From: Synechococcales cyanobacterium bin31.maxbin.ball.101
GTDB taxonomy: Bacteria > Cyanobacteriota > Cyanobacteriia > Leptolyngbyales > Leptolyngbyaceae
Assembly (NCBI GenBank): GCA_013298165.1
Contig: JAAFJU010000015.1
Span: 1-57,897, forward strand
Length of the DNA: 57,897 bases
Reading direction: 5' to 3'
Part shown: positions 28,187 to 46,320 of the stretch, piece after piece
Position numbering within the stretch: position 1 is the first letter of the stretch
Layout of the letters: the number at the start of each line of letters is the position of its first letter
Position numbers and translations under genes: made by a program
Notes under the pieces: generated by a model
What the model saw: only the letters and a program-made list of their open reading frames with translations
Database searches by the model: none
Told to the model about the DNA's origin: nothing

Positions 28187-28939
28187 TCAGTTGGGCGACA
28201 ACGTTTTTTCTAACTCGGTTAAATTGACCAATTGCATCAAGCGTTCCCATTCTGTGGCTTGACGCCGATCGATCGTGGTGTTGATTGCATCAAGCCAGAG
28301 ATTGTTGCTGATATAAAACTCGACTTGTTCGCGGGAGTTCGCGGGGATCTGGGCTAATTTGTGACTATTCGTGCTATCGAGCGTCACGCGACGGAGGCTG
28401 CCTTCTAGCTCGATTGGGGGCTGGGGTGCGTTTTTAGCGTCGGTTTTTGAGGTGCTGCAATCGATCGAAAGAAACCATTGATAGGACTGGTTAACTTGTA
28501 GTGGGGTGGATTCGGGGAGTGCAATGTTCAGCAGGCCCGAGGTCTGGGGGAGAGGGACTGTGATGGCATTTGCGATCGGTTTACCATTCTGTTGGAGCGT
28601 GAATTTAGCCGACAGATTTGTGCCATTGTAGGGGCTGTAAAACCAGAAGGTGGGCCGATCGGACAGGGTCTTGGCTTCTGATAAAGGGACGATCGCCGTG
28701 ACGCCTGTTTCCACTGAGGGACATTGGCCTCGACTGCCGCCCGCGATTCGAGGATCGCGGGTTCTTACGGTTTTTGGAACCTTTAGAGGGCGTTTTTTAG
28801 GCGTTGAAGCGATGAGTTGCGACTGGGTTAGCTGTGGTAATGTCGTGCTGATTGCGGATGGGACTGCTAAGGCGTTAGCGATCGTCAGAGTGAATGCGAT
28901 CGCTAATGTAGTGGTTTTTGAATAGTGAATGCGTTGCAT
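28187..28939 (-). CDS. DUF928 exported protein
   Basis: A 250-residue protein from the ATG at 28939 (MQRIHYSKTTT); the open frame upstream is a shadow of the neighbour. It has an N-terminal hydrophobic segment (TLAIAFTLTIANALA), so it is exported. 'RTRDPRIAGGSRGQCP' and 'RPTFWFYSPYNGTNLSAKFT' are the DUF928 signatures, and 'NLWLDAINTTIDRR' ends the domain. DUF928 genes in cyanobacteria often follow CHAT-CHASE2 genes as here (5 bp gap). Probably periplasmic, possibly a partner of the CHASE2 sensor. Function unknown. Confidence 0.85.
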   Translation of the reverse strand: MQRIHYSKTTTLAIAFTLTIANALAVPSAISTTLPQLTQSQLIASTPKKRPLKVPKTVRTRDPRIAGGSRGQCPSVETGVTAIVPLSEAKTLSDRPTFWFYSPYNGTNLSAKFTLQQNGKPIANAITVPLPQTSGLLNIALPESTPLQVNQSYQWFLSIDCSTSKTDAKNAPQPPIELEGSLRRVTLDSTNSHKLAQIPANSREQVEFYISNNLWLDAINTTIDRRQATEWERLMQLVNLTELEKTLSPN

Positions 28940-28944
28940 AATAG

Positions 28945-31395
28945 TTAGTCCTGCTGATCTGACGGGCTTAGTGAGTTCTGAGAATTGAATTTTAACGAGG
29001 ATTTTAAGAAGTTGGGCTGGGTCGTGATGGATAAGATGCTGCTGGTCAGGACGATCGTGATCACGCTGGGAATCCAGGGAATCCAAGCGCCTTGGAGGAT
29101 CATGCCATAGCAGACGAGTGCGGTACCACTTGATAATAGACCGATCGTGAGTGCAGCACGGGTCCAGATTTGGCTCACTTTTTGGGGCTGTCCGAAGCCT
29201 AGGAGTAGCGCCGTGGCCCAAGCACTGAGCAGTATCCAAGCCATTTCCGCCACTTCAGGAACACTCCACAGGAGCGATCGATTGGTTTCCACAGCGCTGA
29301 GAATCTGGCTCACCATATGGGCATGAATCACAACGCCCGGTAGACTACCATAGGGCGTCGCGGAATAGTCGTTAATTCCTTTCCCTGTGTAGCCAATCAA
29401 AACAATCCTATTTTTAATGGAACTTGTAGGCACTTCTCCATTGAGCAGTTGGCGGAGGGTAACTTGGTCAAAGGCTTGTGCAGAGGGTTGTGTAGAAGTC
29501 GGTACAGCGGCGCGGTAATTGAGCAAAATTTGATTTCCTCCTGTGTCAATGCCGGAGTAGCCTCCCGATCGGTTATGGATCTGTCTAAACACCTGTGAAC
29601 CCAATTTCAAATCACCCTCCGGCGTAAAGCTCCATTCAAATCCTGCATTGCTCAAATAGGTCGCCGCTAACTGAACACTAAAGGCATAGTTGGCCACGCA
29701 AGGGGATGCGGATTCAGGGTCCATAAAGAGGAGATGCCGCCGGACTACCCCATCGGGATCGGCGACAAAATCCGAAAACCCCAGCCGATCGACATCGATG
29801 CCAGGGGGCGGTTTGACGCCGGGATTTTCATTTTGGGTGTCACTGCTGCGGCAAATGGCAATCAGGTTGGGGAGGGTTTGGAATTGTTTTACGATCGTGG
29901 GTTGGTCATTGATGGGAAAATCTCGATAGATATCCAATCCAATGAGGCTCGGCTCGGCCATCGTGAGCTTTTTTAAAAGTTTCTCTAGGGCTGCATTGGA
30001 GATTGATCCACGTCCTCGCTGCTGAATTTTAAAGGTATCTTTTTCAGCTTCGTCGAGTTTGATATCCGTGTTGTCAATTCCGACGATTAGCAATCGTGAA
30101 TCTGGTGCTTCTGACGGGCGCGATCGCAGGACTAGATCCAATGCTTTTAATTCCAAGGGTTGTAACCAACCTAGTTCTCTTACTGCAATCACACTGGTTG
30201 CAACTATTGTGCCTACGGCCAGTGATTTAAGAAGTTTGGGAAGTTTGGGAAGTTTGAATTTAGAGGTGGGTTGAGCAGTTGACGATCGGGCGGTTAAACG
30301 TTGCCAGGTCAGCGCTCTGGACGCTGGGATTTGGTAGAGAATCGGCAGCCAAGTGGCACAGGGATAATGATTTTCTAAACTTTGCAGTTGTTCTCGGGCT
30401 TGGCGGACAGATTGATGGAGGGAATGACCCTGGGAGAAGGTCTGTAGAAAATAGGTCAGAAAGGTCTGCGCCACGGCATCCGGGACCGATTCACGCATGA
30501 CAATGAGATTTGGAATGTGTAAATCCGATAAGGCATGAGCCAGTCCTAGGCCATCACAAGAATTAAAAATAGCGAGTTGCAATCCTCCGTCGATCGCATG
30601 ACGCAGAGCATACTTCAGATCCGCGATCGACAGACTCTCCTCCTCATTGATCGCAATCTCTCCAGATTTGAGACCAGTGCCACTCCGACTATGCCCCGCA
30701 AAAAACAAAATTCGCCAAGGCTGTTGCCAAAGTTCGTCCATGAGATCTTTGCGTTCGGGTGTAGACAAATACTTGACGCTTGTGCCTGCGATCGTTGAAA
30801 GGGTGGCTCGATCGTTCATCGTATCAATGCCATCACTATTTCCCAGAATGGCCAAAATATTGACATCCGGCGAGACTGCCGTTTTAACCGTCGTTTTGAC
30901 ATCTGGTGAGACGGAACTCTGGGTATCGTAATTGGACGAACTCAGGGCCAACTCAGCCTTGGGATAGGTTGAAAATAGCTCCCAGAGGTGCCAGGGGAGT
31001 TTTTGAAGTTGGCGATCGTCGGTTTGAAGCAAAACATCCAGATCATCCGTTGGGCTGATTTTGGCGAGCCAGGTATGCCAAATGGGCAGAAAGCTGGGCG
31101 ATCGGAGCCATTGGTTCAGAGCTTCACCGACGACTTTCCCCGCCTGCTGGCAATCGTCAGGACTGCTATTGGAAGAGGCTTTTGGAAGGCAGATGGGGCG
31201 GGATGGGGTTTGGCTGAGAAGGTTAAGGTAGTGCGATCGCCATTGCTCATAAGCGCGAGGCAGCGCGAGGTTGGGCGGAAGTTTTCCTGTGATGTTTGTG
31301 TGGATGGGCGCACCCATATCGCCGATGCGTAGGGTAATGCTAAACCCTTGCTCGAAGCTGCCGTCATTAAATTCTAGCGTTGCAATTTTGCCCAT
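28945..31395 (-). CDS. CHAT protease-CHASE2 membrane sensor fusion
   Basis: An 816-residue fusion. Residues about 180-370 form a CHAT (caspase HetF-associated, TPR) protease: the catalytic dyad is H235 in 'FFAGHS' and C280 in 'NSCDG'. A membrane helix near 390-410 leads into a CHASE2 domain ('LLIVGIDNTDIKL', 'GLDIYRDFP', 'VKPPPGIDVDRLGFSDF'), an extracytoplasmic sensor, ended by three membrane helices near 710-790. The likely layout is cytosolic protease, periplasmic sensor. In other bacteria CHAT proteases are activated by partner signals and cut specific targets. Its start lies 93 bp from the divergent sigma-factor gene. Substrates are unknown. Confidence 0.88.
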   Translation of the reverse strand: MGKIATLEFNDGSFEQGFSITLRIGDMGAPIHTNITGKLPPNLALPRAYEQWRSHYLNLLSQTPSRPICLPKASSNSSPDDCQQAGKVVGEALNQWLRSPSFLPIWHTWLAKISPTDDLDVLLQTDDRQLQKLPWHLWELFSTYPKAELALSSSNYDTQSSVSPDVKTTVKTAVSPDVNILAILGNSDGIDTMNDRATLSTIAGTSVKYLSTPERKDLMDELWQQPWRILFFAGHSRSGTGLKSGEIAINEEESLSIADLKYALRHAIDGGLQLAIFNSCDGLGLAHALSDLHIPNLIVMRESVPDAVAQTFLTYFLQTFSQGHSLHQSVRQAREQLQSLENHYPCATWLPILYQIPASRALTWQRLTARSSTAQPTSKFKLPKLPKLLKSLAVGTIVATSVIAVRELGWLQPLELKALDLVLRSRPSEAPDSRLLIVGIDNTDIKLDEAEKDTFKIQQRGRGSISNAALEKLLKKLTMAEPSLIGLDIYRDFPINDQPTIVKQFQTLPNLIAICRSSDTQNENPGVKPPPGIDVDRLGFSDFVADPDGVVRRHLLFMDPESASPCVANYAFSVQLAATYLSNAGFEWSFTPEGDLKLGSQVFRQIHNRSGGYSGIDTGGNQILLNYRAAVPTSTQPSAQAFDQVTLRQLLNGEVPTSSIKNRIVLIGYTGKGINDYSATPYGSLPGVVIHAHMVSQILSAVETNRSLLWSVPEVAEMAWILLSAWATALLLGFGQPQKVSQIWTRAALTIGLLSSGTALVCYGMILQGAWIPWIPSVITIVLTSSILSITTQPNFLKSSLKFNSQNSLSPSDQQD

Positions 31396-31488
31396 GGCTT
31401 CGCCAATCTGGACCCAGAAGTCTGGATCACTTTTAATAATAGTATGTGAATATACGGATGGATTGGCAAGGGGAGTCGTGGGCGATCG

Positions 31489-32655
31489 ATGCAGTCAAGA
31501 AAAGATGTAGTGGAAATATTTTCGACGTTTTTGCGCCTTGAAGCCGATCGTCCGGCGGGGTGGCTTGTGGACGGTCGCTTGCGGCGACGGATGACCGAGA
31601 TGCAGGACCTAATCCCCGATCGCTCTAGCCGGGATTGGTCGCTGTATTGGCATGAAGTCTGGCAGACGGATCAAGCTTCCGGCGCAGAACCCCATCTCAC
31701 GGCCTATCTTCAAGAAACCTGCTACTGGGTCGCCCGACGCATCGCCACAAATCAGCGAAATCTGAGTTGGCTAGCGGATTTTTTTCAAATTGCGATCGTC
31801 CGAGTCCCCAGGCTGCTGCACTATTTCAAACCAGAGTATAGTTCCAGCCTCAAGAAATACGCTGAATTGGGATTTGAAAATAGCCTCAAAGATTGGCTCA
31901 GAGTGCAGCAGCAGGTGGAAGTCTGTAGTGACTGGACGTTGCTCCATCGGCTCAGTCGAAGGCGCTTGCAGAACGCTTTAACGCAGTCAGGCAGGACTGC
32001 CACGGCCATTGCCCAGTACACCCTCGCCTGGGACTGCTATCAAGAACTCACGGCTACTCTCAAAGCTAACGCTCGTCCGATGGATGACACTTGGAGTGCG
32101 ATCGCCGATGCCTACAATGCCGATCGGCTGGCTCAAGTGGGACCCGGAACCCCGATCGCCACCGCCGCCGAGCTTGAACAATGGCTCCTCACCTGCGCCA
32201 CCGCCGTCCGCCAATTTCTAAAACCTGCGATTCTGTCTGCCGATGCCCCTTTTTCCGATGAGTCGTCATTTCATCCCCTAGATTTCATCGCAGATCCCCA
32301 TCCATCTCCGATCGATCAATGGATCATCCAGGATGAAGAAACCCTCCGATCGCAGCAACATCAACAGTTACAAGCTGTATTAGCGGAGACGATCGCGAGT
32401 CTGAGTGAACCGGAAAAGAATCTTCTACAGGATTACTACAGCGGTCAAATGACCCAAGTAGATATGGCCAAAAAGCTGGGGATTCAACAATATCAAGTCT
32501 CTCGGCAGCTTGAACGGGTTCGCCGATCGATCTTGAAAAAAATAATCCTGTGGGTTCAGAAAAATCTGCATACTTCACCCACGCCCTCAGTAGTGGAGTC
32601 CATGAGTCACAGCTTAGAGGTTTGGTTGAAGGATTATGGGAGAGTACCGTCATGA
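31489..32655 (+). CDS. Sigma-70-like RNA polymerase sigma factor
   Basis: A 388-residue protein. The C-terminal 'ASLSEPEKNLLQDYYSGQMT' and 'AKKLGIQQYQVSRQLERVRR' are a region-4 helix-turn-helix that contacts the -35 element. The N-terminal half is divergent, with 'SGAEPHLTAYLQETCYWVAR' in the place of region 2, so the protein belongs to a cyanobacterial atypical sigma group. Its ATGA stop overlaps the DUF1822 start, coupling the two. It is divergent from the CHAT-CHASE2/DUF928 pair and upstream of secreted proteins, so it may direct transcription of this locus (inference). Confidence 0.82.
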   Translation: MQSRKDVVEIFSTFLRLEADRPAGWLVDGRLRRRMTEMQDLIPDRSSRDWSLYWHEVWQTDQASGAEPHLTAYLQETCYWVARRIATNQRNLSWLADFFQIAIVRVPRLLHYFKPEYSSSLKKYAELGFENSLKDWLRVQQQVEVCSDWTLLHRLSRRRLQNALTQSGRTATAIAQYTLAWDCYQELTATLKANARPMDDTWSAIADAYNADRLAQVGPGTPIATAAELEQWLLTCATAVRQFLKPAILSADAPFSDESSFHPLDFIADPHPSPIDQWIIQDEETLRSQQHQQLQAVLAETIASLSEPEKNLLQDYYSGQMTQVDMAKKLGIQQYQVSRQLERVRRSILKKIILWVQKNLHTSPTPSVVESMSHSLEVWLKDYGRVPS

Positions 32656-33767
32656 GTTTTAATCGCATTGTTTTGGACTATCCCAGCAATCCAACCCCTA
32701 CGGCAGCATCAATGCCTGGTGCGATCGTTCGATCGCATCTCAATCAAGCCTGCACCCAAGCCTTCATGGATTGGGTCAGCGCCGAATTTGACTGTAGTTC
32801 CCAACCGTTTCCAAACGCCGCGACCTTGCCAAGTATTTGGGAGGTGGTGAATGGGACAGCGGTGATTTTAAAATCAGGAACGGCATCATTAAAAGTGGTG
32901 TTAATTCCAACGATCGCGATCGGCCTGGACGAATTGCGCGTCCCTCAAGAATGGATTGATATTCCCGAATGGACCGCAGACTATTACATTGCAATGCAGA
33001 CGGATTCAGAAATCGAACTAGTCGGCTATGCCAGTCATCAGGACTTAAAAACAACAGGCCGTTTTGATCCAATCGATCGGACTTACACCTTAGAACTGGA
33101 CAACATTGGACAAGATTTAACAAGCCTCTTCCTCTCCTGGCAACTTGCATCCTTACCGATCACCCAAGCCCCGATCGCCGCACTCCCCTCATTACCCCAA
33201 ACCCAAGCCCAAACCTTAATCGATCGGCTCGGCAATCCAAGCGTCACATTTCCACGTCGTGCCATTCCCTTTGTCCAATGGGCGGCGTTAATGTCCCATG
33301 GCGGTTGGCGACAGCAGTTGTGCGATCGGAGACAAGGCCGCGAATCACAATCGGTCCAAACCTGGATTCGATCGGGCCTATTCAGCGCTGCGCAATCCTT
33401 GGGTTGGCAGCCGAGACAATGTAGTTTAGCGGGATCGCGAAGCCTACAATCGGGCCTTGCAAAACCTTTGACGATCGTTGGAAATCCCTATGAATTACGA
33501 GTGTTTCCATTAGATGAATTGAGAGATGAATCCAGTGCAATGACCTGGCGATTTGAATTACGGAGTGCAGTTAACGATCGGATCCCAGCAGGCTTTAAGC
33601 TCCGACTGTTAACAGAAGATTTGCAGCCCATGGACCACAACGAAGATGTTGCGGTCGGTGAACCTGAGACTTTATTTATCGATGTGATGTTAGAGGCGGG
33701 AGAGGGCTTGGTATGGGAGGTTGAGCCTGCTGCGGAAGCCTTCGATCGGGAAATTCTTCGATTTTGA
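32652..33767 (+). CDS. DUF1822 protein coupled to the sigma factor
   Basis: A 371-residue protein from the ATG at 32652 (MSFNRIVL), overlapping the sigma-factor stop. It has no signal peptide or membrane segment. 'VVLIPTIAIGLDELRVPQEW' and 'WTADYYIAMQ' in the first half, and 'GFKLRLLTEDLQPMDHNEDV' near the end, fit DUF1822, a cyanobacterial family found beside such sigma factors. By its place it could be an anti-sigma or adaptor protein. That is inference only. Confidence 0.82.
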   Translation: MSFNRIVLDYPSNPTPTAASMPGAIVRSHLNQACTQAFMDWVSAEFDCSSQPFPNAATLPSIWEVVNGTAVILKSGTASLKVVLIPTIAIGLDELRVPQEWIDIPEWTADYYIAMQTDSEIELVGYASHQDLKTTGRFDPIDRTYTLELDNIGQDLTSLFLSWQLASLPITQAPIAALPSLPQTQAQTLIDRLGNPSVTFPRRAIPFVQWAALMSHGGWRQQLCDRRQGRESQSVQTWIRSGLFSAAQSLGWQPRQCSLAGSRSLQSGLAKPLTIVGNPYELRVFPLDELRDESSAMTWRFELRSAVNDRIPAGFKLRLLTEDLQPMDHNEDVAVGEPETLFIDVMLEAGEGLVWEVEPAAEAFDREILRF

Positions 33768-33858: not shown

Positions 33859-34971
33859 ATGCCATTCAACCGATTGTTCCGCCGCCTGACTTGCTTCACC
33901 CTGTTCCTGTTGGGGTCAAGTCAGCTTTCCCAGGTCGCAACCGCTCAGAGTGTCCCGCCTGTCAGTCAGCCCCTCAGTCAGCGAACCCAACGGGCAGTCC
34001 TGCGCCAATGTCCCTTTCGCTTTCCGACGAATCAAACCAGTCCCGCTGTAATTTTAAGCCTTCAGCAACAAATCGCAGCCGCTCAAACTGCTGGAGATCT
34101 AGCGCAAGTGGCTGGGTTGTTGAATCAATTGGGCAACATTTATCTAGTGTTGGGACAGTATGATCTATCCATTCAGGCTTATCAACGATCGATTGACCTT
34201 GCCCGCTCAACCCAGTCGCTGGGCACAGAAGCCGCTTCTTTAGGTGGACTGGGGCACAGCAACGTTGAATTAGGACAATATGTTCAAGCTACAGCTCAAT
34301 TCAACCGATCGTTTCAAATTCGGCAATCTTTGAACGCAATCTCTCTTACATCCCTGTCCCTCAACAATTTGGGGATTGTCTCCAACTTACAAGGGAAGTT
34401 TAGTGTCGCTGACAATTACTATCAACAGGGATTAACCCTTGTCCGCAGCAATGATCCAGCCCAAACCTCATTCCCCAGTCCATTATTACAAGGGAATCAA
34501 GGGAATACCCAGTTCTTCACTCAGAATGCCGTAGTTGCCACTGCAACCTACGATCGACTCCTCGCCTTGAGAGCGCTGGATGTCTCCAATGAAGGAGCAT
34601 TGCTGAATAATCGTGGCTTAGCTTATCAAGCGGTGGGTAAGTTGGATCTGGCCTTACAGTCCTATGACCTGGCATTGCAAAAGCTAGAACCCCCCAATAA
34701 TCGCAGTTGTCAATGGAAGACCTTAAGCAATCGTGGACGGTTACTCGTGCAGCAAGGTCAATCGGCAGCAGCGATCGTCGCCTATCGCAAAGCAACCGAT
34801 ATCACCACTCAAATCTGGCGGGATTCCATTTTAAAACTCTCACCTGAGCAGAGAGCCTCCTATCGCAAAATGATTCGCCCTATTTATACAGAATTCGCTG
34901 TTCTGCTGATAGGACAAGGAAAATTTGAGGAAGCAGATCTCCTGCTAGCCACGTTGAGACGTTCCACATAA
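33859..34971 (+). CDS. Secreted TPR protein, CHAT-less
   Basis: A 370-residue exported protein with signal peptide 'CFTLFLLGSSQLSQVATAQS'. At least four TPR units follow ('LNQLGNIYLVLGQYDLSIQA', 'SLGGLGHSNVELGQYVQATA', 'LNNLGIVSNLQGKFSVADNY', 'LNNRGLAYQAVGKLDLALQS'). The last part, 'EQRASYRKMIRPIYTEFAVL', resembles the segment that joins TPRs to the CHAT domain in the protein at 43690, but a stop comes just after. It may be a truncated CHAT protein or a dedicated scaffold. Confidence 0.8.
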   Translation: MPFNRLFRRLTCFTLFLLGSSQLSQVATAQSVPPVSQPLSQRTQRAVLRQCPFRFPTNQTSPAVILSLQQQIAAAQTAGDLAQVAGLLNQLGNIYLVLGQYDLSIQAYQRSIDLARSTQSLGTEAASLGGLGHSNVELGQYVQATAQFNRSFQIRQSLNAISLTSLSLNNLGIVSNLQGKFSVADNYYQQGLTLVRSNDPAQTSFPSPLLQGNQGNTQFFTQNAVVATATYDRLLALRALDVSNEGALLNNRGLAYQAVGKLDLALQSYDLALQKLEPPNNRSCQWKTLSNRGRLLVQQGQSAAAIVAYRKATDITTQIWRDSILKLSPEQRASYRKMIRPIYTEFAVLLIGQGKFEEADLLLATLRRST

Positions 34972-35021
34972 ATCATTTTTTTGGTTTCTGGCGCAGCAAC
35001 CTGCATAGTCTTCCAGACTCG

Positions 35022-35092
35022 CAGTAGGAACAGTACAGATGGAGAAAAGCCAGTCGTTATCTGCTTTCCTCCACTGTTCATCGTTCCTACTG
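35022..35092. promoter_or_regulatory. Long imperfect hairpin before the subtilase gene
   Basis: Arms CAGTAGGAAC and GTTCCTACTG pair exactly, and inside them GGAGAAAAGC pairs with GCTTTCCTCC save for one mismatch. The stem ends 14 bp before the subtilase ATG. It could be a terminator for the TPR gene or a structured leader that tunes subtilase expression. Confidence 0.6.
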
Positions 35093-35105
35093 TCAGGTCA
35101 AACCA

Positions 35106-37286
35106 ATGGTATTCTCAACGGTCTCAGAGCGCCCTCTCTCTACTAGTCTCGGCGGAAACCCAGTTGATGTCGCCAGTCTCACTACATCGTTGCAATCTGA
35201 ATTCATAGCCAATTCTGCGAGTCCGCTATCTGTCTCGTCCGGTGTTAGAGTGACCACCACGGATTTTATTGGAGACTCCTTACGGACAGCGCATAATATC
35301 GGCGATATCAATGCCTCAATGTATCGGTATTCCGATCGGGTCAGCACGATCGATCCCCAAGATTTTTATCGCTTTCAACTCAACACAGCGGGCAGCATTA
35401 GCATTGGTTTAACTGGATTGAGTGCGGATGCTGATCTTTATTTGCTCGATAGTAATGGTCTCACCACAGCTCTATCCATTGGTTCTGGAAGCCGAAATGA
35501 ATCGATTGATCGATTCCTCTCAGCAGGCGTCTATTACGTGAATATTCGATCGTTTTTGGGTTCACAAAATACAGCTTACAGCCTGAGCATCAATGCGGGT
35601 GGTACTGCTATAGAACCGGGAGAAACGATCGCCACCGCTCGAAATTTAGGAAATCTTAGCCGAGATTCTTGGACCGTTGAAGACTCCGTTGGACGATCGG
35701 ATTTAAATGATTATTACCGCTTTGATCTCAGTGAAAATAGTAACTTTCACTTGAGCTTGACGGGTTTGAGCAATGACGTTGATGTGGCTTTGTACGATCG
35801 AGCAGGTCGATTTGTTGCAAGTTCCTTGAATGCAGGGAGCCGATCGGAAGCGATCGATCGGTATTTGGAAGCGGGGTCCTACTCGGTTCGGGTGTATTCA
35901 TGGCTGGGGAGTAGCAGTAACTATACGATTCGAGCTTACAGTGATACGCCGTCCTACTCTGGAACTCGGACCCTCACAGGAACACTGGGAGCCGATAGTT
36001 TTGACGTGATTGGCAACTTTACTCGCACCATTATTTCGGGGAATGGGAATGTAGATTTTGGTCTGGAACGGTTTGATACCTTGGACCTCTCCAGTTTAAG
36101 TTCAACAAGCGTAAGATTCAATCTTGCCAACACAACAGGCAGCGGTGTTTTTTATGATCCGGGGAATGGCACTCGGGTGTTTGATTCCATTCTCTTGAGT
36201 GATGGTCGTCAGGTTTTATTTGAAGGGATCGATCGGATTCACTTTAGCGATCGGTGTATTGATCTAGCTATCACTCCCAATGACCCGCGCTTCGCTCAGC
36301 AGTGGAATCTCGGTATGATGAATGTCCAGAATGCATGGCGTTTTACAACCGGGTCAAATCAAGTCTTAATCGGTGTAGAAGATACCGGACTGGCATTGAG
36401 TTCTAACGGTACGATTGCGGAGGATCTGCGCTGGTCTTGGTTTGATATCGGCAATGATTATGATGACGATTTTGGTGATCTAGCCGCCTCCCATGGAACA
36501 TTTGTCCAGAGTGTGATTGCGTCGATTAGTAATAATGGAACGGGCATGAGTGGCATTAACTGGAATTCTGAAACCTATGTCATGGACGTATTGGGTGATG
36601 ATATCGGAGACTACTCATTGGCGCAGGCGACCCGGGTGATGGCGGACTATGCCACCCAGCGTGGACAGCGATTGGTGATCAATATGAGCCTTGGAACGAG
36701 TGGATTCAATCAAACGGGTCTGAATCCTGAGTTTGAAGCCGTGGTTGCCGCTAATCCGAATGTATTATTTGTCATTGCGGCGGGAAATAACGGGGCGATC
36801 GGAAGGGAAGGGTTAGCCTATCCCGCGACTTTGGCCCGATCGTATCGCAATGTCATGGCGATCGGCGCATCCTGGGGACGATCGGATGCCTATGGTGCGA
36901 CGAGAACGCCAGGGACCCGCATTGAGTATCCAGCGGACCGTTATCCTGGTCGTCCCTGGGGATCCCAGTATGGTGATGGCTTAACGCTGATGGGTCCCTC
37001 TGAGGTCGTTGCGCGGGAAGCAGAGCGATCCGATCGGGGCAATGTGGAATTCAGCTACACCACGACATTTGATGGGACGTCGGCTGCGGCACCGAATGTG
37101 ACGGGCGTGGCCTCTCTGGTCTGGAGTGCGAACGCTAATTTGTCAGCGACGCAGGTGAGAGAGATTATGTCTCAGACCGCGACTGACCTAGGTGCTGCGG
37201 GTTACGATCGCTACTACGGGAACGGTTTCGTCAATGCGGATGCGGCAGTACGACGGGCGATCGCGATCGGAGCTGGGTATGCCTAA
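35106..37286 (+). CDS. S8 subtilisin-like protease with N-terminal PPC domains
   Basis: A 726-residue protein. Two PPC (pre-peptidase C-terminal) beta-sandwich domains come first ('DPQDFYRFQLNTAGSISIGL', 'LNDYYRFDLSENSNFHLSL'), then a short RTX-like linker ('LTGTLGADSFDVIGNF'), then the protease. The catalytic triad is D426 (VEDTG), H463 (SHGTF) and S659 (GTSAAAP), with the oxyanion Asn in 'IAAGNNG'. No signal peptide is visible, so export, if any, would use another route. Usually PPC follows the protease; here the order is reversed. It may process the adhesins encoded downstream (inference). Confidence 0.9.
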   Translation: MVFSTVSERPLSTSLGGNPVDVASLTTSLQSEFIANSASPLSVSSGVRVTTTDFIGDSLRTAHNIGDINASMYRYSDRVSTIDPQDFYRFQLNTAGSISIGLTGLSADADLYLLDSNGLTTALSIGSGSRNESIDRFLSAGVYYVNIRSFLGSQNTAYSLSINAGGTAIEPGETIATARNLGNLSRDSWTVEDSVGRSDLNDYYRFDLSENSNFHLSLTGLSNDVDVALYDRAGRFVASSLNAGSRSEAIDRYLEAGSYSVRVYSWLGSSSNYTIRAYSDTPSYSGTRTLTGTLGADSFDVIGNFTRTIISGNGNVDFGLERFDTLDLSSLSSTSVRFNLANTTGSGVFYDPGNGTRVFDSILLSDGRQVLFEGIDRIHFSDRCIDLAITPNDPRFAQQWNLGMMNVQNAWRFTTGSNQVLIGVEDTGLALSSNGTIAEDLRWSWFDIGNDYDDDFGDLAASHGTFVQSVIASISNNGTGMSGINWNSETYVMDVLGDDIGDYSLAQATRVMADYATQRGQRLVINMSLGTSGFNQTGLNPEFEAVVAANPNVLFVIAAGNNGAIGREGLAYPATLARSYRNVMAIGASWGRSDAYGATRTPGTRIEYPADRYPGRPWGSQYGDGLTLMGPSEVVAREAERSDRGNVEFSYTTTFDGTSAAAPNVTGVASLVWSANANLSATQVREIMSQTATDLGAAGYDRYYGNGFVNADAAVRRAIAIGAGYA

Positions 37287-37397
37287 TCCCAAATAAACTC
37301 GAAGGTTTGGACGATTACGCATGATTTTGCCTGCGCGATCGTCCTATACTTTCAATCAAGTCAGTGTGTTCTCCTAGTTTTACGAATCATAGAAGTT

Positions 37398-40300
37398 ATG
37401 TTGCATTCCCAGTTTCAATCTTCTTATATTTCTACGATCGCACTGATATTTGGTTTAACGATCGCTTCTCCTGTCAATGCTGAAATCATTCCTGATCGGA
37501 CCCTACCTAATAATTCGATTACCGTCCCAAACTGCACAGTCTGCACGATCGAAGGCGGAACAACCCGAGGAAGCAATCTTTTTCACAGTTTCGATCGGTT
37601 TTCAGTTCCCACGCTGGGCAGCGCTTACTTCAATAATGCTCCTCAGATTCAAACCATTTTCACCCGCGTAACAGGCAACCAAATCTCGACCATTGACGGG
37701 TTGCTTCGGACGAATGGCAATGCCAGTTTGTTTTTAATGAATCCGAACGGAATTGTATTTGGACCCAATGCGAGTTTGAATTTGGGTGGATCGTTTGTTG
37801 GAACTACTGCAAATGCGATCGGGTTTGGCCGGAGCGAAACCTTTAGTGCATCTAATCCCGATGTCCCGCCACTGTTGACGATCAACCCTTCAGCATTGAT
37901 TTTTAATCCAGGGAATCAGGGACGTATTGTCAACCGATCGGTCACACCGTTAGGAATGACTGCACCGGATGGGATTGAACTATATGGATTACAAGTCAAG
38001 CCTGGGAAAGGGTTTGCTTTAATCGGCGGAGATGTCGGGATACTGGGTGGGGGCATCAATGCACCGGGTGGACGAGTGGAATTGGGTGGAATTGTTGCAC
38101 CGGGGACGATCGGCGTGAGTCGAGAACCCGATGGATTTCAATTCCAATTTCCCGCTGGCGTCGATCGGGCAGATGTTGTATTGAATGATGAAGCGCTGAT
38201 TAATGTGGCATCAGCAGGCGGTGGAATCGTCTCGATCAACGCCCGAAACGTCGAAATCACAGAGAAGAGTTCCCTTCGCGGGGGTCTTGAAACAGGGGCG
38301 ATCGCCGATCGTCCAGCCGGAGACTTGAGGATTAATGCAACTGGAGTACTCAGAATGAGTCAATTGGGTGCCATTAAAAGTATCTTAAATGCTGGCACCG
38401 TTGGCACTGGGGGCAATATTATCGTTCAAGCAGATTCTCTGGCTGTGACCAGTGGTGGACAAATTGCCAATGTCACGGCCTTGAGTCAAGGCAAGACCGG
38501 AAATATCTCCATCAATGTGGTGAATACAGCAAGCTTTGACGGTACAGATCCAACTGAAGCGCTGGGTTCAGGAATTACCAGTAGTGCGGCGTTCTCCCTG
38601 AGTGATTCAGGAAAAATCAATATCAGCGCAGGTTCACTCTTTGTAACAGGGGGAGCTAATTTTTCGTCATCTTCGATCATTACACAGGGTAGTGCAGGTG
38701 ACATTACGATGAATGTTCGCGATCGAACGGTTTTTGATGGTGTCAGTAATTCAGGGACCTTACGCAGTGGCACAACGAGTCAAAATCTTTTTGGACTTCT
38801 TGGCAATAGTGGAAAAATTCGGATCAATACTGGATCACTCTCTGTACTCAATGGCGCACAGTTAAATACTAGTAAAAGCTACCTCACAGGAGATTCAGGA
38901 GACATTGAGATCAATGCCCGTGATTCAGTCCTGGTTAGTGGAACGAGTCAATCAGGATTGCCAAGCTTCATTACCACTAATTTAGGTGAGTTGACAGTCG
39001 GAAAAGCGGGAAATATTGATATCAAAACGGGATCGATCGCAGTGACTAATGGTGCAATTATCAACTTGCAAACATCAGGATTAGGAAACAGTGGAAACTT
39101 GACGATCGATGCTCGGGGTCAGGTTTTGTTTGAGAGTAGTGGGGATGATCCAAATCGAAGAACGTTTATCTCAACTTCAGCGGTCGAAGGGGCGATCGGG
39201 AATAGCGGAAATATTATTATTAGCGGAGATTCTTTACTAATTAAAAATGGTGCAGCCCTTGGTTCAATTAATTCTGCAAGTGGAAACGGCGGTAATATAA
39301 CACTCAATATTTTTGCGTCGGCTGTTATTGATGGAAAAGGAAGCAGCATTACTAGTAGCGTATTTGGCACAAAAAATAATATTAAATCAGGAAATATCAA
39401 CATCTTCGCAAAGTCTCTTCAGCTTAAAAATGAAGGAATATTGCTCTCCAGCGGCTTCTTTGGAGGAAGTTCAGGAAACATTACAATAAATGCACAAGAT
39501 ACGGTTGAATTATCCAGTGGTGCTGGACTTTCGACGCTTATATTTGGACAAGGACGAGCAGGGAAAGTCGATATTCGAGCAGGAAACGGGATTGCTCTGA
39601 ACAATACTTCAATCTCTGCTGGATCGTTCTCCCTAGAAGATGCTTTAATTTTTCTAAGGATGAATGGATACCCTTTAAAAGACATTCCGGCTATATTTTT
39701 CCAATCCGGTCAAGGAAGTGCCAATGATATTGAAATTACAGCTCCTTCTTTGCGTCTAGATAACAGCCAAATTTCCACAACGACAACCTCTGGAAATGGC
39801 GGCAATATTCAGTTGCAGCTCGATAAATTATTAGTTCTTCGTCGAGAGAGTAGCATTTCAACGTCTGCTGGTCTCTCGCTGAAAGGTGCTGAGCAAGGGG
39901 GGAATGGCGGTAATATCAATATTAGAATTCCTGACGGGTTTGTCGTGGCGGTTGCGTCTGAAAATAGTGATATTTTTGCCAATGCGTTTAGTGGGAGTGG
40001 TGGCAGAGTGAATGTGACCACGCAAGGACTCTATGGCATTCAATTCCGTCCTCGTCTCACCCCTCTGAGCGATATTACTGCCAGTTCTGAATTGGGGGTG
40101 AGTGGCGTCGTAACCCTGAATTCACTGGGTCTGGACCCCAGTAATAGCTTAGTCCAACTCCCCGTGGGACTCATCGATCCATCCAACAAAATCGATCGGC
40201 AATGTTCAGCAAGAAGCTCACAACGATCGAGCAGTTTTACCATTACGGGAACAGGCGGCATTCCAGCCAGTCCGATCGAAACGCTTCAGCAGCAGAATGC

Positions 40301-40523
40301 CTTACTGGACTTGATTCCATTACCACAAGAAGAGCAGGCCACAGCACAACCTACTCAATCCCCGATAACGATGTCATCGCATCCTTCCCTCGAAGAAGCC
40401 CAAGGCTGGAACATTGACGATACTGGAGGCATTTGGTTAGTTGCCAGTCACCGATCGCAGCGAAGCCCACTTAATTCTCTGGATTGTCCAGGCAATGCTG
40501 TAACGCTAGGAGGTCAATCATGA
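37398..40523 (+). CDS. TPS-type filamentous haemagglutinin-like adhesin 1
   Basis: A 1041-residue secreted beta-helix protein. Signal peptide 'STIALIFGLTIASPVNA', then the two-partner-secretion domain with 'SLFLMNPNGIVFGPNASL' (the NPNG motif) and 'GGSFVGTTANAIGFG'. The long middle repeats 'GNSGNI'- and 'INARD'-like turns every 60-70 residues, typical of a right-handed beta-helix. It ends with a Cys-containing segment 'NKIDRQCSARSSQRSSSFTI' and 'GTGGIPASPIETL', as in many cyanobacterial haemagglutinins. An outer-membrane TpsB (FhaC-like) pore should export it; none is in the window. The stop overlaps the start of adhesin 2 (ATGA). Confidence 0.9.
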   Translation: MLHSQFQSSYISTIALIFGLTIASPVNAEIIPDRTLPNNSITVPNCTVCTIEGGTTRGSNLFHSFDRFSVPTLGSAYFNNAPQIQTIFTRVTGNQISTIDGLLRTNGNASLFLMNPNGIVFGPNASLNLGGSFVGTTANAIGFGRSETFSASNPDVPPLLTINPSALIFNPGNQGRIVNRSVTPLGMTAPDGIELYGLQVKPGKGFALIGGDVGILGGGINAPGGRVELGGIVAPGTIGVSREPDGFQFQFPAGVDRADVVLNDEALINVASAGGGIVSINARNVEITEKSSLRGGLETGAIADRPAGDLRINATGVLRMSQLGAIKSILNAGTVGTGGNIIVQADSLAVTSGGQIANVTALSQGKTGNISINVVNTASFDGTDPTEALGSGITSSAAFSLSDSGKINISAGSLFVTGGANFSSSSIITQGSAGDITMNVRDRTVFDGVSNSGTLRSGTTSQNLFGLLGNSGKIRINTGSLSVLNGAQLNTSKSYLTGDSGDIEINARDSVLVSGTSQSGLPSFITTNLGELTVGKAGNIDIKTGSIAVTNGAIINLQTSGLGNSGNLTIDARGQVLFESSGDDPNRRTFISTSAVEGAIGNSGNIIISGDSLLIKNGAALGSINSASGNGGNITLNIFASAVIDGKGSSITSSVFGTKNNIKSGNINIFAKSLQLKNEGILLSSGFFGGSSGNITINAQDTVELSSGAGLSTLIFGQGRAGKVDIRAGNGIALNNTSISAGSFSLEDALIFLRMNGYPLKDIPAIFFQSGQGSANDIEITAPSLRLDNSQISTTTTSGNGGNIQLQLDKLLVLRRESSISTSAGLSLKGAEQGGNGGNINIRIPDGFVVAVASENSDIFANAFSGSGGRVNVTTQGLYGIQFRPRLTPLSDITASSELGVSGVVTLNSLGLDPSNSLVQLPVGLIDPSNKIDRQCSARSSQRSSSFTITGTGGIPASPIETLQQQNALLDLIPLPQEEQATAQPTQSPITMSSHPSLEEAQGWNIDDTGGIWLVASHRSQRSPLNSLDCPGNAVTLGGQS

Positions 40524-43500
40524 GGGGTTTTGACTTGCTATGCTGGACTCTATTTGTGGGATTATTTCAAACAATTAATTCAGACTATTCAGCAAACGCT
40601 CAAATTATTCCCGATCGGACCTTGCCTGTTAATTCCACTGTAGTAGCGGGCTGTACGACTTGCACGATCGATGGGGGCACCACAAGAGGAAGCAATCTTT
40701 TTCATAGCTTCAGCAGTTTTTCGGTTCCCACGCTGGGTAGCGCTTACTTCAATAACGCACCCCAGATTCAAACCATTTTCACCCGCGTAACAGGCAACCA
40801 AATCTCAAATATTGACGGGTTACTTCGGACGAATGGCAATGCAAGCTTGTTTTTAATGAATCCGAATGGAATTGTATTTGGACCCAATGCGAGTTTGAAT
40901 TTAGGTGGATCGTTTGTGGGGACGACTGCAAATGCGATCGGGTTTGGGAAAGAGATCTTTAGTGCTTCTGATCCTGATGCCCTGCCGCTGTTGACGATCG
41001 ACCCTTCGGCGTTGATTTTTAATGCGGGGAATGTGGGACGAATTATCAACCGATCGGTCACGCCTTTAGTCAATGTCCCAGATGCGATCGATCTGTATGG
41101 TTTGCAGGTTGGTATTGGGAAAAGTATTGGGCTGATTGGTGGTGATGTGTTGCTAGAAGGTGGTGGCATCAGTTCGCCCGGTGGACGAATTGAACTCGGT
41201 GGTTTATCAGCACCAGGGACGATCGGACTGATACTTCAAAACAATGATTTGCAACTGCAATTTCCCTCAGAAGTTCTGAAATCAAATGTTTTACTAACAA
41301 ATGAAGCTCGGGTCAGCGTGCCATTTACGGGGGGTGGTTCAGTTGCTATCAATGCTCGAAATCTGGAGATGTCCGGCGGCAGCACCATTCGCGGGGGGCT
41401 TGAACTTGGACTAATATCCGATCGTCCGGCAGGAGATATCGTTATAAATGCCGCTGAAAATATTCGCTTAACTGGAAGCAGTACCGAGATTAATAATAAT
41501 ATTCGTCCAGGCAGTGTAGGGAATGCTGGCACGATCGTCCTAAATACTGGTTCTCTATTCGTTAGCGGCAAGGCTGTTTTGCGAAGCGTTACATTTGGGA
41601 AAGGGAACTCTGGAACGATCGAAATTAATGCACGAGATTCGATCGTATTTGACAGCAGCTATCTATTGATGGGTGTGCTTTTAGAAGGAGTTGGAAATGG
41701 TGGGACAGCGAAGATTAATACTGGTTCACTTTTACTGAGAAACGGTTCAGGCTTTGATATAGGGAGTCAAGGACAAGGTAATGGTGGAAATATTAGCGTT
41801 AGGGCAACGGGTGCTGTAGAACTAAGTGGGACAGAGAAGAGTAGAAGTTATATGCTTTCTGGAATTGATGAGAAGGGTATCGGAACTGGAGGTGATATTA
41901 GCATTACTGCCGAATCTCTATCGCTTAGAAATGGGCTATTGCAATCTAGCGTCTTTGGATCTGAAAATAATCAAATAAGAGGCCAAGGTAATGCAGGAAA
42001 CATTGTATTGAATATTCGCGACAAGGTTTCGATCGATGGCTTTGGTACTGGAATAACAAGTTCGCTTGGATTTACTGCCATAGGTAATGCTGGGAAAATA
42101 ACGCTCAATGCTAGATCATTAGCAATCAGTAATAGAGGTAGAATCACTAGCAATTCCTTTGGAATCGGAAATGCTGGTGATATTAATATTCGAGTTGACA
42201 ATGATATTGTACTATCCAGTAGTGCCATAGGAAGTAATGTACTTACCCCAACTGGTTTAGAAACTGCGATCGGGAATAGTGGTGAAATTCAGATTCGATC
42301 GCAATCCTTAATCCTTAATGAAGCAAGCTTTATTGATGCCTCAATTAGTGGACAAGGCAATGCTGGAAATCTAGAAATTAATGTTAATATACTACAACTC
42401 AATAATTCATCTATTGGAACAAATCCAACGAAGGGAGGAAATGGTGGATCAATAAAAATTAATGCCCGTGACAATGTTAATATCCAAGGAAAAGGAGCTT
42501 CCATATCAGCTTCTTTATTTTCTGGCAATGGTCGTGGTGGTGATATTCTCATTAACACTCAAGATCTTTCACTCATTGATTCTTTAGGGATTAGTTCCTA
42601 TGCCCAGGGAAACGGTAACTCAGGTGATATCAAATTGAATATTGGTAGTCGATTACTAATCAATAATAGTCTAATACTGAGTATTGCAGTTCCCAAACTC
42701 CAAGCTGATAGCAACGGTAATGGGGGTGACATTAATATCATCACTGGGTCTTTTTTGTTGATCGATGGTGGGCAGTTAAGTTCCTCAACTTATGGAAAAG
42801 GAAAAGCAGGAAATATTAACATTGATGCAAGAGAATTTATTCTACTAGCTGGAAACAACCCTAGTTCTATTTCTGTCGAGTCAGGCTCAACTGGGTTGAC
42901 GGGAAATCTTACGATTACTTCACCACGTCTCACAATTATTGATAAAAGTACTATTAGTGGTAATTCCAGAGCAGTAAATGGCGGAAATATTAAATTGAAT
43001 TTAGATGCCGTATTACTGTTACGTCGTGGTGGAAATATCACAACCAATGCAGGGACGGCAGAAGCTGGGGGAAATGGAGGAAATATCACCATCAACACAC
43101 CCAATGGATTTATAGCTTCTGTCCTTTCCGAAAATAGTGATATCTCAGCCAATGCGTACAGTGGTAATGGTGGTAAGGTCACGATCGCAGCCCAAGGTAT
43201 CTATGGAATTCAATTTCAATCTCAACTAACACCATTCAGTGATATCACGGCCAGTTCGACTTTAGGTGTGAATGGAGTCGTGAATTTAGCAACCCCAGAT
43301 GTTGATCCGAGTCGAGGACTATCGCAACTCCCCGTGAGCCTCGTAGATCCTGCTAACAAAATCGATCGGCAATGTTCAGCAAAATCCTCACAACGATCGA
43401 GCAGTTTTACCATCACCGGAACAGGTGGCATTCCAGCCAGTCCGATCGAAACGCTTCAACAACAAAGCAGTCTGATGGAACTCGTCCCGCTGCCCAGTAA

Positions 43501-43687
43501 CGAACCCGACAGCGATCGCCAAGCTCAAGCGCTGCCGACCTCTAATCAAACCCCATTGATAGAGGCCCAGGCGTTGCGAAGGGATTCGCGGGGGGAACTG
43601 TGGCTGGTGGCAAATGCTGAAGGTCAACCAACCAGACCGATCGCACCACCAAACTGTTCTACAATGGCACTTCAGGGGAGTCACTAA
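40520..43687 (+). CDS. TPS-type filamentous haemagglutinin-like adhesin 2
   Basis: A 1055-residue paralogue of adhesin 1, starting at the ATG at 40520 (MRGFDLLCW). The signal sequence 'FVGLFQTINSDYSANAQ' is less regular. The TPS domain (NPNG at about residues 110-120) is nearly the same as in adhesin 1, even in nucleotides, and so is the end 'NKIDRQCSAKSSQRSSSFTI'. The middle differs and has its own 'GNAGNI', 'GNGGNI' repeats. The two genes are probably a tandem duplication later kept alike at both ends. The CHAT protein begins 2 bp after the stop. Confidence 0.9.
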   Translation: MRGFDLLCWTLFVGLFQTINSDYSANAQIIPDRTLPVNSTVVAGCTTCTIDGGTTRGSNLFHSFSSFSVPTLGSAYFNNAPQIQTIFTRVTGNQISNIDGLLRTNGNASLFLMNPNGIVFGPNASLNLGGSFVGTTANAIGFGKEIFSASDPDALPLLTIDPSALIFNAGNVGRIINRSVTPLVNVPDAIDLYGLQVGIGKSIGLIGGDVLLEGGGISSPGGRIELGGLSAPGTIGLILQNNDLQLQFPSEVLKSNVLLTNEARVSVPFTGGGSVAINARNLEMSGGSTIRGGLELGLISDRPAGDIVINAAENIRLTGSSTEINNNIRPGSVGNAGTIVLNTGSLFVSGKAVLRSVTFGKGNSGTIEINARDSIVFDSSYLLMGVLLEGVGNGGTAKINTGSLLLRNGSGFDIGSQGQGNGGNISVRATGAVELSGTEKSRSYMLSGIDEKGIGTGGDISITAESLSLRNGLLQSSVFGSENNQIRGQGNAGNIVLNIRDKVSIDGFGTGITSSLGFTAIGNAGKITLNARSLAISNRGRITSNSFGIGNAGDINIRVDNDIVLSSSAIGSNVLTPTGLETAIGNSGEIQIRSQSLILNEASFIDASISGQGNAGNLEINVNILQLNNSSIGTNPTKGGNGGSIKINARDNVNIQGKGASISASLFSGNGRGGDILINTQDLSLIDSLGISSYAQGNGNSGDIKLNIGSRLLINNSLILSIAVPKLQADSNGNGGDINIITGSFLLIDGGQLSSSTYGKGKAGNINIDAREFILLAGNNPSSISVESGSTGLTGNLTITSPRLTIIDKSTISGNSRAVNGGNIKLNLDAVLLLRRGGNITTNAGTAEAGGNGGNITINTPNGFIASVLSENSDISANAYSGNGGKVTIAAQGIYGIQFQSQLTPFSDITASSTLGVNGVVNLATPDVDPSRGLSQLPVSLVDPANKIDRQCSAKSSQRSSSFTITGTGGIPASPIETLQQQSSLMELVPLPSNEPDSDRQAQALPTSNQTPLIEAQALRRDSRGELWLVANAEGQPTRPIAPPNCSTMALQGSH

Positions 43688-43689
43688 TC

Positions 43690-46320
43690 ATGAAAATTAA
43701 GCTTGAGAATAAGGTCATAACCGCGATCGTTCTGTTTCTATTCACCATCAGTTTAACGATCGGATTTGCCATTGTCCCGACGATCGCTCCTGCATTGTCG
43801 ATCGTCTCCCAACCCAATGCCCAAAGTTATTTTGAGCAAGGCACCCAGTTTTATCAGAGTGGTCAATATACCGCTGCCGCCCAAGCCTTTCAACAAGCGG
43901 CCAAACTCTACCAATCTCAAAATGCACCACTCAAACGATCGGCAGCCCTCAGTAATTTGTCATTAGCCTATCAAAAACTCGGATCTTGGAAAGAAGCCCA
44001 GCAAGCGATCGCCGAAAGTTTGCAGAGTTTAGAAACTGTAAAGGGTGACAACCGATCGGTTTTGGCGCAGGCGTTGGAGATTCAGGGCGGACTGCAACTC
44101 TCTACGGGGCAGAGCGATCGGGCGTTGGACAGTTGGCAACAGGTCGAAAAACTGTATACCCAAACTGCCGATCGAGCCGGACTTCGCCGCACCCAATTAA
44201 ACCAAGCCAAGACCTTACAAGTCAAAGGATTCTATCGTCGCGCCTTGGCCATTCTAGAGGCCCTAGAGCCAACTTTAAAAGCAGAACCGGACTCTGTAAC
44301 CAAAGCCGTGGCCCTTCGATCCCTGGGCGACACGCTTCAACTCACAGGCGATCTAACGCAAGCCGATCGGGTTTTACAATCCAGCCTAGAAATCGCACAA
44401 CGCCTGAATCTTCCAGAACAGATTAGCGCCGCCCAGTTTAGTTTAGGCAACATCGCCCGATCGCAGCAAGATCCCAAACGTGCGATCGGCTTTTACACCC
44501 AAGCCGCCACCACCGCACCGACTCTACTCGCAAAACTACAGGCCAAAATCAACCACTTCAGCCTGCTCAGAGAACCGAAAGATCTCTCCACTGCAATGAA
44601 CCTATTCCGAGAGATTGAAACTCAACTTCCGCAGCTCAACGTCAGCTACGCCAGCGCCTACGCCCATATCAATCTTGCCCAGACTGTCATCACTCGCCTG
44701 CGGGATTGGAAGCTTGATCCTCCAGATAAACGCTTAGTTCAATTGCTAGAACGATCGACCGAAACACTTCTGACCACCGCCACCGAACAATCAAAACAAC
44801 TCAACGACGAATACCTCCATGCCTACGCCCTAGGAACATTAGGCTATCTGCAAGAAATACAGGATAAGCAATCATTAGCTCAACGATCGACCGAACAAGC
44901 CTTATTGATTTCCCAAGCCCTCAATGCATCAGAAAGTACCTATCGCTGGCAATGGCAACTCGGACGACTGCTGAAGGCTCAAGGGAAGATACAGAGCGCA
45001 AAGAGCAGCTATGAGGGGGCGATCGACACCTTGCGATCGTTGCGCAGTAATCTGGCCGCCATTAATCGCGACGTGCAGTTTGATTTTCGCGACAGTGTCG
45101 AACCTGTCTACCGCGAAACGGTGGCATTGCTATTGGATATTCAAAAAACCAATCCCAGCGATCGAAACCTAGAGCAAGCCAGAACTTTAATCGAACAACT
45201 TCAACTCGCAGAACTCGACGACTTCTTTCGAGAAGCCTGTCTCAACGGGACTCAAATTGTTCTAGACCAACTCGTGGACAAAGACAACCCCAGCACGGCC
45301 ATCATCTATCCCATCATTCTCGATCAACAGATCCAAGTCATCGTCAAAATCCCCAAGCAACCCCTTCAAAGTTACGCCATTAACCAGCCCCACACCACCA
45401 CCGAAACGTTGCTTAAACAACTGCGATCGCAACTCGTCTCCTCCAGCGATGAAGACTCGACTCAAGAGCTATCGCAACAAGTTTACCAATGGTTAATCCA
45501 ACCGATCGATCGTCGCTTAGAAACCGCAAAGGTCAACACGTTAGTCTTTGTCTTAGATGGTGAATTTAGAAACTTGCCGATGGCCGCACTCTATGATGGC
45601 AAACAGTATCTAATTGAAAAATACGCGGTTGTATTAAGTACAGGATTACAGCTTCTACAGCCCCAACCTCTCAACCCAGACAGTACGCTGAGTGCGGTCA
45701 TGGCAGGACTCACGGTTCCCCCCGTTGAGTTTCAAGCTCAATATGCCTCCCTCCCCGAAATCAATACTGAATTTAACCTCATCCAACAAACAGGCATCAA
45801 CACCAAAATCCTCCTAGAACAAGACTTCAATCACAAAAATCTCGCCCAGACGGTCCAATCAAAACCCTCGAAAATCGTTCATTTAGCCACCCATGGAACC
45901 TTCAGTTCACGAGCAGATGAGACCTATATTTTGGCATCGGATGGCCCCATCTATGTGAATGAATTAGATACCTTACTCCGCGATCGTGAACAGGTCTCTG
46001 CTGATCCGATCGAACTGTTAATCCTCAGCGCCTGCCAGACCGCAGCAGGCGATTCACGGGCCACCCTAGGACTTGCGGGCGTCGCCATCCGGGCAGGCGC
46101 ACGGAGCACCTTAGCCTCACTTTGGCAGGTGGACGATCGGGCTACAGCTCTATTCATGGGAACCTTTTATCAGGAACTCGTTAACTCAAAAGTTTCCAAA
46201 GCCGAGGCTCTCCGTCGCGCCCAAGTTGCGCTGCTGAAACAAGATTTTCAAGACGAAAATCCAGGCTTCGTGCGCCCTCGGTATTGGGCCGCTTACGTAT
46301 TGATTGGAAATTGGCTTTAA
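43690..46320 (+). CDS. TPR-CHAT caspase-like protease
   Basis: An 876-residue protein. An N-terminal hydrophobic segment (ITAIVLFLFTISLTIGFAIV) is a signal peptide or anchor. TPR repeats cover about residues 40-450 ('ALSNLSLAYQKLGSWKEAQQ', 'QFSLGNIARSQQDPKRAIGF'). The CHAT domain occupies the last 320 residues, with H735 in 'HLATHG' and C782 in 'LSACQTA', then 'GLAGVAIRAGARSTLASLW'. The active-site set is complete. In other bacteria such proteins are caspase-like and cut effectors on signal. Because it is last in the adhesin operon and has a signal-like N-terminus, it may act in the periplasm or at the membrane (inference). Confidence 0.92.
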   Translation: MKIKLENKVITAIVLFLFTISLTIGFAIVPTIAPALSIVSQPNAQSYFEQGTQFYQSGQYTAAAQAFQQAAKLYQSQNAPLKRSAALSNLSLAYQKLGSWKEAQQAIAESLQSLETVKGDNRSVLAQALEIQGGLQLSTGQSDRALDSWQQVEKLYTQTADRAGLRRTQLNQAKTLQVKGFYRRALAILEALEPTLKAEPDSVTKAVALRSLGDTLQLTGDLTQADRVLQSSLEIAQRLNLPEQISAAQFSLGNIARSQQDPKRAIGFYTQAATTAPTLLAKLQAKINHFSLLREPKDLSTAMNLFREIETQLPQLNVSYASAYAHINLAQTVITRLRDWKLDPPDKRLVQLLERSTETLLTTATEQSKQLNDEYLHAYALGTLGYLQEIQDKQSLAQRSTEQALLISQALNASESTYRWQWQLGRLLKAQGKIQSAKSSYEGAIDTLRSLRSNLAAINRDVQFDFRDSVEPVYRETVALLLDIQKTNPSDRNLEQARTLIEQLQLAELDDFFREACLNGTQIVLDQLVDKDNPSTAIIYPIILDQQIQVIVKIPKQPLQSYAINQPHTTTETLLKQLRSQLVSSSDEDSTQELSQQVYQWLIQPIDRRLETAKVNTLVFVLDGEFRNLPMAALYDGKQYLIEKYAVVLSTGLQLLQPQPLNPDSTLSAVMAGLTVPPVEFQAQYASLPEINTEFNLIQQTGINTKILLEQDFNHKNLAQTVQSKPSKIVHLATHGTFSSRADETYILASDGPIYVNELDTLLRDREQVSADPIELLILSACQTAAGDSRATLGLAGVAIRAGARSTLASLWQVDDRATALFMGTFYQELVNSKVSKAEALRRAQVALLKQDFQDENPGFVRPRYWAAYVLIGNWL

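Follow-up and report, generated by a model that had tools for sequence, protein, structure and literature searches.

Does a membrane-bound CHAT protease control a sigma factor and the DUF1822 protein encoded directly behind it? The question is raised by a contig of 57,897 nucleotides (the window, that is, the whole stretch of DNA analysed), which belongs to a genome of 5.39 Mb in 356 contigs whose relatives are cyanobacteria. The sigma factor and DUF1822 genes share one strand, and a gene for a protein combining CHAT and CHASE2 domains is divergently oriented next to them, as follows.

28187..28939, minus strand: DUF928 protein with an N-terminal hydrophobic segment, 3′ of the CHAT-CHASE2 gene (PF06051, 1.7e-36; the start, ATG at 28939, was picked by eye)
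28945..31395, minus strand: EACC2-like/CHAT/CHASE2 membrane protein, 816 aa (CHAT, 9.1e-16; CHASE2, 5.8e-60)
30556..30558, minus strand: codon of the CHAT catalytic Cys280 (FNSCDG)
30691..30693, minus strand: codon of the CHAT catalytic His235 (FFAGHS)
31396..31488, no strand: divergent intergenic region of 93 bp between the starts of the sigma factor and CHAT-CHASE2 genes (direct sequence)
31489..32655, plus strand: sigma-70 family factor of class S1, 388 aa (TIGR02937, 3.8e-28)
32652..32655, plus strand: ATGA common to the sigma stop and the DUF1822 start (direct sequence)
32653-32655, plus strand: TGA stop of the sigma factor open reading frame (direct sequence)
32652..33767, plus strand: DUF1822 protein, 371 aa, proposed anti-sigma factor (PF08852, 2.8e-72; ATG at 32652)

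The first-pass annotation had read this layout as a regulated-proteolysis circuit, in which a sensor triggers cleavage by the CHAT domain and the sigma factor is released. That proposal, part of which had been made before, is plausible and partly supported by the present analysis, and we consider the prospects evenly balanced for the explanation as a whole, namely, that the sigma factor and DUF1822 form a sigma/anti-sigma pair switched by the CHAT-CHASE2 protein. The structural observations on which it was built proved accurate: the overlap of the two genes is present in the sequence, the open reading frame coordinates confirm a gap of 93 bp between the sigma gene and the start of the CHAT-CHASE2 gene on the opposite strand, and hydropathy analysis detects no membrane segment in DUF1822, nor any in the sigma factor of the window. 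The DUF928 gene is located 3′ of the CHAT-CHASE2 gene in many relatives as well. Immediately downstream of the trio, positions 33859-43687 encode a TPR protein whose start resembles a signal peptide, an S8/PPC protease and two TPS-domain proteins of the haemagglutinin type, and TPS-domain genes are also found near the trio in some relatives. These are followed at 43690-46320 by a gene for a TPR-CHAT protein whose N-terminal part contains a hydrophobic segment; this protein is probably exported, and a cytoplasmic sigma factor is an unlikely target for it.

The TIGR02937 (sigma70-ECF) match of the sigma factor spans residues 72-351, and the Pfam matches to region 2 and region 4 each fall below their cut-offs. 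For a relative (L038), the sigma factor and its DUF1822 partner were modelled with AlphaFold2 as a single read-through chain, and the sigma half of this model resembles solved sigma factors with both ends covered (Z 9-11), superimposing on sigma domain 2 of MtbSigA at 1.8 Å over 93 residues. Taken together, the TIGR02937 and structure matches place the window protein in the sigma-70 family, with regions 2 and 4. ECF (group 4) sigma factors consist of regions 2 and 4 only, joined by a short linker; in the window protein, about 145 residues (from 141 to 290-302) lie between the matches to these two regions. The genes located 5′ of DUF1822 fall into two classes: S1, to which the window gene belongs, comprises clear sigma factors of about 390-500 aa, and S2 comprises shorter, divergent proteins of about 210-260 aa, which we term sigma-like given that their matches to sigma families are only weak.

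To what extent are the two genes bound to each other? DUF1822 loci were collected from 244 cyanobacterial genomes; a DUF1822 match is present in roughly two thirds of the genomes sampled, and many have several copies. We read 140 loci, most with 11-18 kb of context, which together with the window yielded 141 DUF1822 genes. The nearest same-strand upstream neighbour is a sigma-like gene in 125 of these, and in a second set, consisting of the 80 closest DUF1822 loci from GTDB species genomes (all cyanobacterial), a sigma gene lies directly 5′ of DUF1822 in 79. The class of the upstream gene, S1 or S2, switches only once along the DUF1822 tree. Tree distances of DUF1822 and the sigma factors correlate at 0.73 (S1) and 0.65 (S2), against a largest value of about 0.2 in 300 shuffles; for DUF1822 and adjacent EACC2-CHAT proteins, the correlations are 0.75 (S1 class) and 0.62 (S2 class), and for nearby TPR-CHAT genes, the trees of which do not track that of DUF1822, just 0.26. 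Because species kinship feeds all of these correlations, the contrast with TPR-CHAT is their informative part. The exact ATGA overlap occurs in only 11 of 146 S1 sigma-DUF1822 pairs, so that the conserved feature is tight adjacency, not the ATGA. The view that sigma factor and DUF1822 constitute a coupled pair is thus upheld by adjacency in 125 of 141 loci, congruent trees and the single class switch, and the sigma-DUF1822-CHAT arrangement as such is not a product of chance.

The genome that contains the window carries three further DUF1822 genes, on contigs C82 (L114), C105 (L133) and C25 (L134). Contigs C82 and C105 hold a second S1 sigma pair without an adjoining CHAT gene and an S2-DUF1822-CHAT-CHASE2 operon, and on C25, DUF1822 directly precedes a CHAT gene, and no sigma gene is recognised there. 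A further CHAT-CHASE2 gene, on C125 (L176), has no DUF1822 beside it and adjoins what by eye is a chalcone-synthase-like gene.

Many S1 sigma genes are preceded by a promoter-like element, GTGAACTTCTCTGC-ATATCACTCTTTACGACGRCTTTTAGTTTTTATGCACT (an ECF-like GAACTT, about 16-17 nt, and TTACGAC). Copies of this element are found in L184 (5661-5723 and 6474-6536), L210 (4848-4910), L211 (4752-4814), L219 and L227, and no recognisable copy is present in the 93-bp region of the window (31396..31488). Extra copies are located 1-4 kb away, and several of these have a terminator-like hairpin behind them but lack a consistent open reading frame, a pattern suggestive of a short RNA; these putative short-RNA regions yielded no Rfam match.

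The strongest pointer to what DUF1822 does comes from distant members of the family. These do not belong to the photosynthetic class: they were found in a family of relatives with small genomes (f30) and in a genome of another class (G016). Their N-domain is homologous to that of cyanobacterial DUF1822 (E 2.2e-15), and in 11 of 36 basal members it is followed by the H-x3-C-x2-C motif, compared with 0.07% in shuffles. The N-domain is combined with this zinc anti-sigma motif in seven f30 proteins (L266, L269, L271, L276, L277, L285 and L297), those examined extending into a long acidic stretch, and in two proteins of G016 (L273 and L275). One protein, L266, matches zf-HC2 (1.3e-6) above the Pfam cut-off right after the DUF1822 domain; in L269, a hydrophobic segment was seen by eye; and in G016, one motif-bearing DUF1822 gene lies 9 nt after a weakly sigma-like gene. 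Other members of the distant family have lost the cysteines and kept a similar helix. None of the 221 cyanobacterial DUF1822 proteins examined, that of the window included, contains H-x3-C-x2-C, and the window protein accordingly lacks the ligands that define zinc anti-sigma (ZAS) factors. A direct sequence comparison of the helical middle of DUF1822 with the zinc region gave no significant similarity (E 0.084). Given the domain context in the distant relatives, the likeliest role of DUF1822 is that of an anti-sigma factor that has dispensed with zinc, and binding and inhibition of the window sigma factor by its DUF1822 partner appear probable.

The DUF1822 protein of the window, modelled with 141 sequences, yielded a structure (pLDDT 88.6, pTM 0.83) in which an alpha/beta N-domain is followed by a helical middle part and a C-terminal beta-sandwich of Ig-like type. 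No tetratricopeptide (TPR) domain match was found in the protein, and as modelled, the mixed alpha/beta fold is not TPR. A Foldseek search with the model produced no match at E<=0.001, and the DUF1822 profile identified no meaningful relative by sequence among proteins of known structure. Residues 30-166 (32739-33149) resemble archaeal Hjc/restriction-endonuclease folds (Z 7.7, 2.9 Å, 114 residues), a value short of what the tool considers meaningful, and visual inspection of this domain revealed no evident nuclease motif; the C-terminal end weakly resembles Ig-like domains (Z 6.5). As for physical contact, which the first-pass annotation had proposed to assess by predicting the complex, the fused L038 chain gave well-folded parts and no confident interface (pTM 0.61); this is a weak test with alignment rows mostly unpaired, and it speaks neither for nor against binding. 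Likewise, in an analysis of residue co-evolution between sigma factor and DUF1822 (mutual information, 146 pairs, Neff 94), the signal is dominated by conserved columns.

We then come to the protease. The His235/Cys280 dyad of the window CHAT domain is intact, and hydropathy places membrane segments at residues 387-405, between CHAT and CHASE2, and in a C-terminal cluster from residue 715 on. Its N-terminus is common to CHAT proteins encoded beside DUF1822; the EACC2 label is taken from a published description (PMC8195603). An EACC2-type CHAT gene is the nearest downstream neighbour of DUF1822 in 77 of the 141 loci. Among the 79 closest loci with a window-type pair, 37 have an EACC2-CHAT gene within 8 kb of the pair and 42 have none in the sequence analysed; the divergent layout of the window, with CHAT at <=600 bp, recurs in 11 of the 79, and 13 carry CHAT just 3′ of the pair, at <=700 bp. 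The CHAT-CHASE2 proteins encoded near window-type pairs and that of the window form one clade (27 rows, support 97), which is free of any S2-associated CHAT and in which the sister of the window protein, L183, has the same divergent layout. Since these loci were fetched via DUF1822, nearness to an S1 pair is built into the clade, whereas its being a single clade is not. Two earlier ideas were abandoned on the basis of the closer loci: that CHAT genes are never found beside window-type pairs (the first tree had 0 of 25), overturned by 24 of the 80 closer loci, and that the window CHAT had strayed in from the S2 lineage, dropped given the single dedicated clade.

That the association is kept even though the orientation of the CHAT gene varies argues for a functional link. 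CHAT adjacency switches 23 times over the whole DUF1822 tree and many pairs are without CHAT, so that the link is frequent rather than obligate, or can act at a distance. Control of the pair by CHAT is favoured by the recurrence of this third partner, its own clade, the intact dyad, and the sensor and membrane segments; the claim that the layout implies a circuit is too strong, given that an EACC2-CHAT gene is missing from the 8 kb around 42 of 79 window-type pairs in the sequence analysed. In our estimate, it is about an even call whether the CHAT-CHASE2 protein acts on the sigma-DUF1822 pair, and putative cutting of DUF1822 as its mode of action is a conceivable, somewhat less probable assumption.

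The same observations bear on three other readings of the locus. DUF1822 might assist an unusual sigma factor as its positive cofactor or chaperone, an activator rather than an inhibitor. Obligate pairing and congruent trees would suit any tight partner, and the zinc motif is missing from all 221 cyanobacterial copies; nevertheless, its presence in distant relatives, together with the fact that co-transcribed partners of sigma factors are usually inhibitors, renders this reading unlikely. There is similarly little to recommend the notion that DUF1822 is chiefly a partner, adaptor or substrate of the EACC2-CHAT protein, with the sigma factor merely transcribing the module and not being inhibited by DUF1822. 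This would agree with the DUF1822-CHAT pair without a recognised sigma gene on C25 and with the finding that the DUF1822 trees agree with those of adjacent CHAT as well as with those of sigma, but the window-type clade is usually devoid of an adjacent CHAT, and 79 of 80 loci nevertheless retain the sigma gene; the anti-sigma zinc motif of the distant members also speaks against it.

The CHAT-CHASE2 gene of the window could, finally, be a chance neighbour of the pair. Deeper in the tree, its lineage is found among CHAT genes of the S2 DUF1822 class, and other window-type pairs have no CHAT-CHASE2, but the recurrence of the divergent and downstream layouts in close relatives (11 and 13 of 79, respectively) and the placement of the relatives’ CHAT genes in one clade with that of the window had already disfavoured this explanation, which we regard as highly improbable.

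Under the preferred reading, a sigma/anti-sigma pair would be produced from one transcript, and the soluble DUF1822 would bind the sigma factor and keep it off RNA polymerase. The extracytoplasmic CHASE2 part of the membrane protein would sense a signal and activate the cytoplasmic CHAT protease domain, which would then cut or displace DUF1822 and thereby free the sigma factor. There is a precedent for relief of sigma inhibition by a CHAT protease in type III-E CRISPR systems, where the CHAT protease Csx29 cleaves Csx30, a sigma-factor inhibitor (PMC10028731). The two systems (Craspase/CASP, with Csx29, Csx30 and CASP-sigma, in the latter case) are alike in outline, each combining a CHAT protease, an inhibitor that is, or would be, its substrate and a sigma factor, ECF-type in Craspase/CASP and putatively so in the window, that is, or would be, released. 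They differ in that the protease of Craspase is a soluble TPR-CHAT protein and the trigger is target RNA via Cas7-11 (PMC10028731), whereas the window CHAT is membrane-bound and carries a CHASE2 sensor; furthermore, the DUF1822 profile detects, by sequence, no meaningful relative of known structure. The resemblance to ZAS (zf-HC2) factors is confined to the distant members, in which the DUF1822 N-domain is joined to H-x3-C-x2-C, and does not extend to the zinc ligands in the window protein or the 221 cyanobacterial ones. Another CHAT-domain membrane protein is HetF of heterocystous cyanobacteria, the active site of which is needed for function (PMC8406250); the window CHAT matches its family weakly (NF045509, 2e-8; 33 bits against a cut-off of 1200), and HetF differs in having CHAT, TM and TPR domains, not CHASE2 (PMC8406250).

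The neighbourhood itself has been described before. In the portions of the paper available to us, Kaur et al. 2021 (PMC8195603) report an EACC2-caspase gene whose C-terminus varies and can be CHASE2, with genes for an ECF sigma factor and DUF1822 as neighbours, and suggest peptidase activation with a transcriptional output through the sigma factor; the circuit of the first-pass annotation is, to that extent, a version of a published proposal. The window corresponds to this system both in the CHAT domain with a His-Cys dyad and a CHASE2 C-terminus and in the sigma factor and DUF1822 gene neighbours. The two accounts differ in that the same portions refer to DUF1822 as a TPR protein, in contrast to the alpha/beta, helical and Ig-like composition modelled here, and they do not name DUF1822 an anti-sigma factor, as we do. 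New in the present work are the association numbers, the two sigma classes, the co-diversification and the dedicated CHAT lineage, as well as the non-TPR fold predicted for DUF1822 and the anti-sigma motif in its distant relatives.

DUF1822, for which no function is known, is widespread in Cyanobacteria. It is possible, if on balance rather unlikely, that it represents a large and so far unrecognised cyanobacterial family of anti-sigma factors that derives from zinc anti-sigma factors, has lost the zinc and has come to be targeted by a membrane CHAT protease equipped with a CHASE2 sensor; the family would then embody a caspase-like, transmembrane route to sigma factor release. Should DUF1822 be an anti-sigma factor under the control of CHAT-CHASE2 proteins, a whole set of unnamed cyanobacterial sigma factors would gain a regulator and a signal input, and the caspase-like proteases of cyanobacteria would gain a role in transcription.
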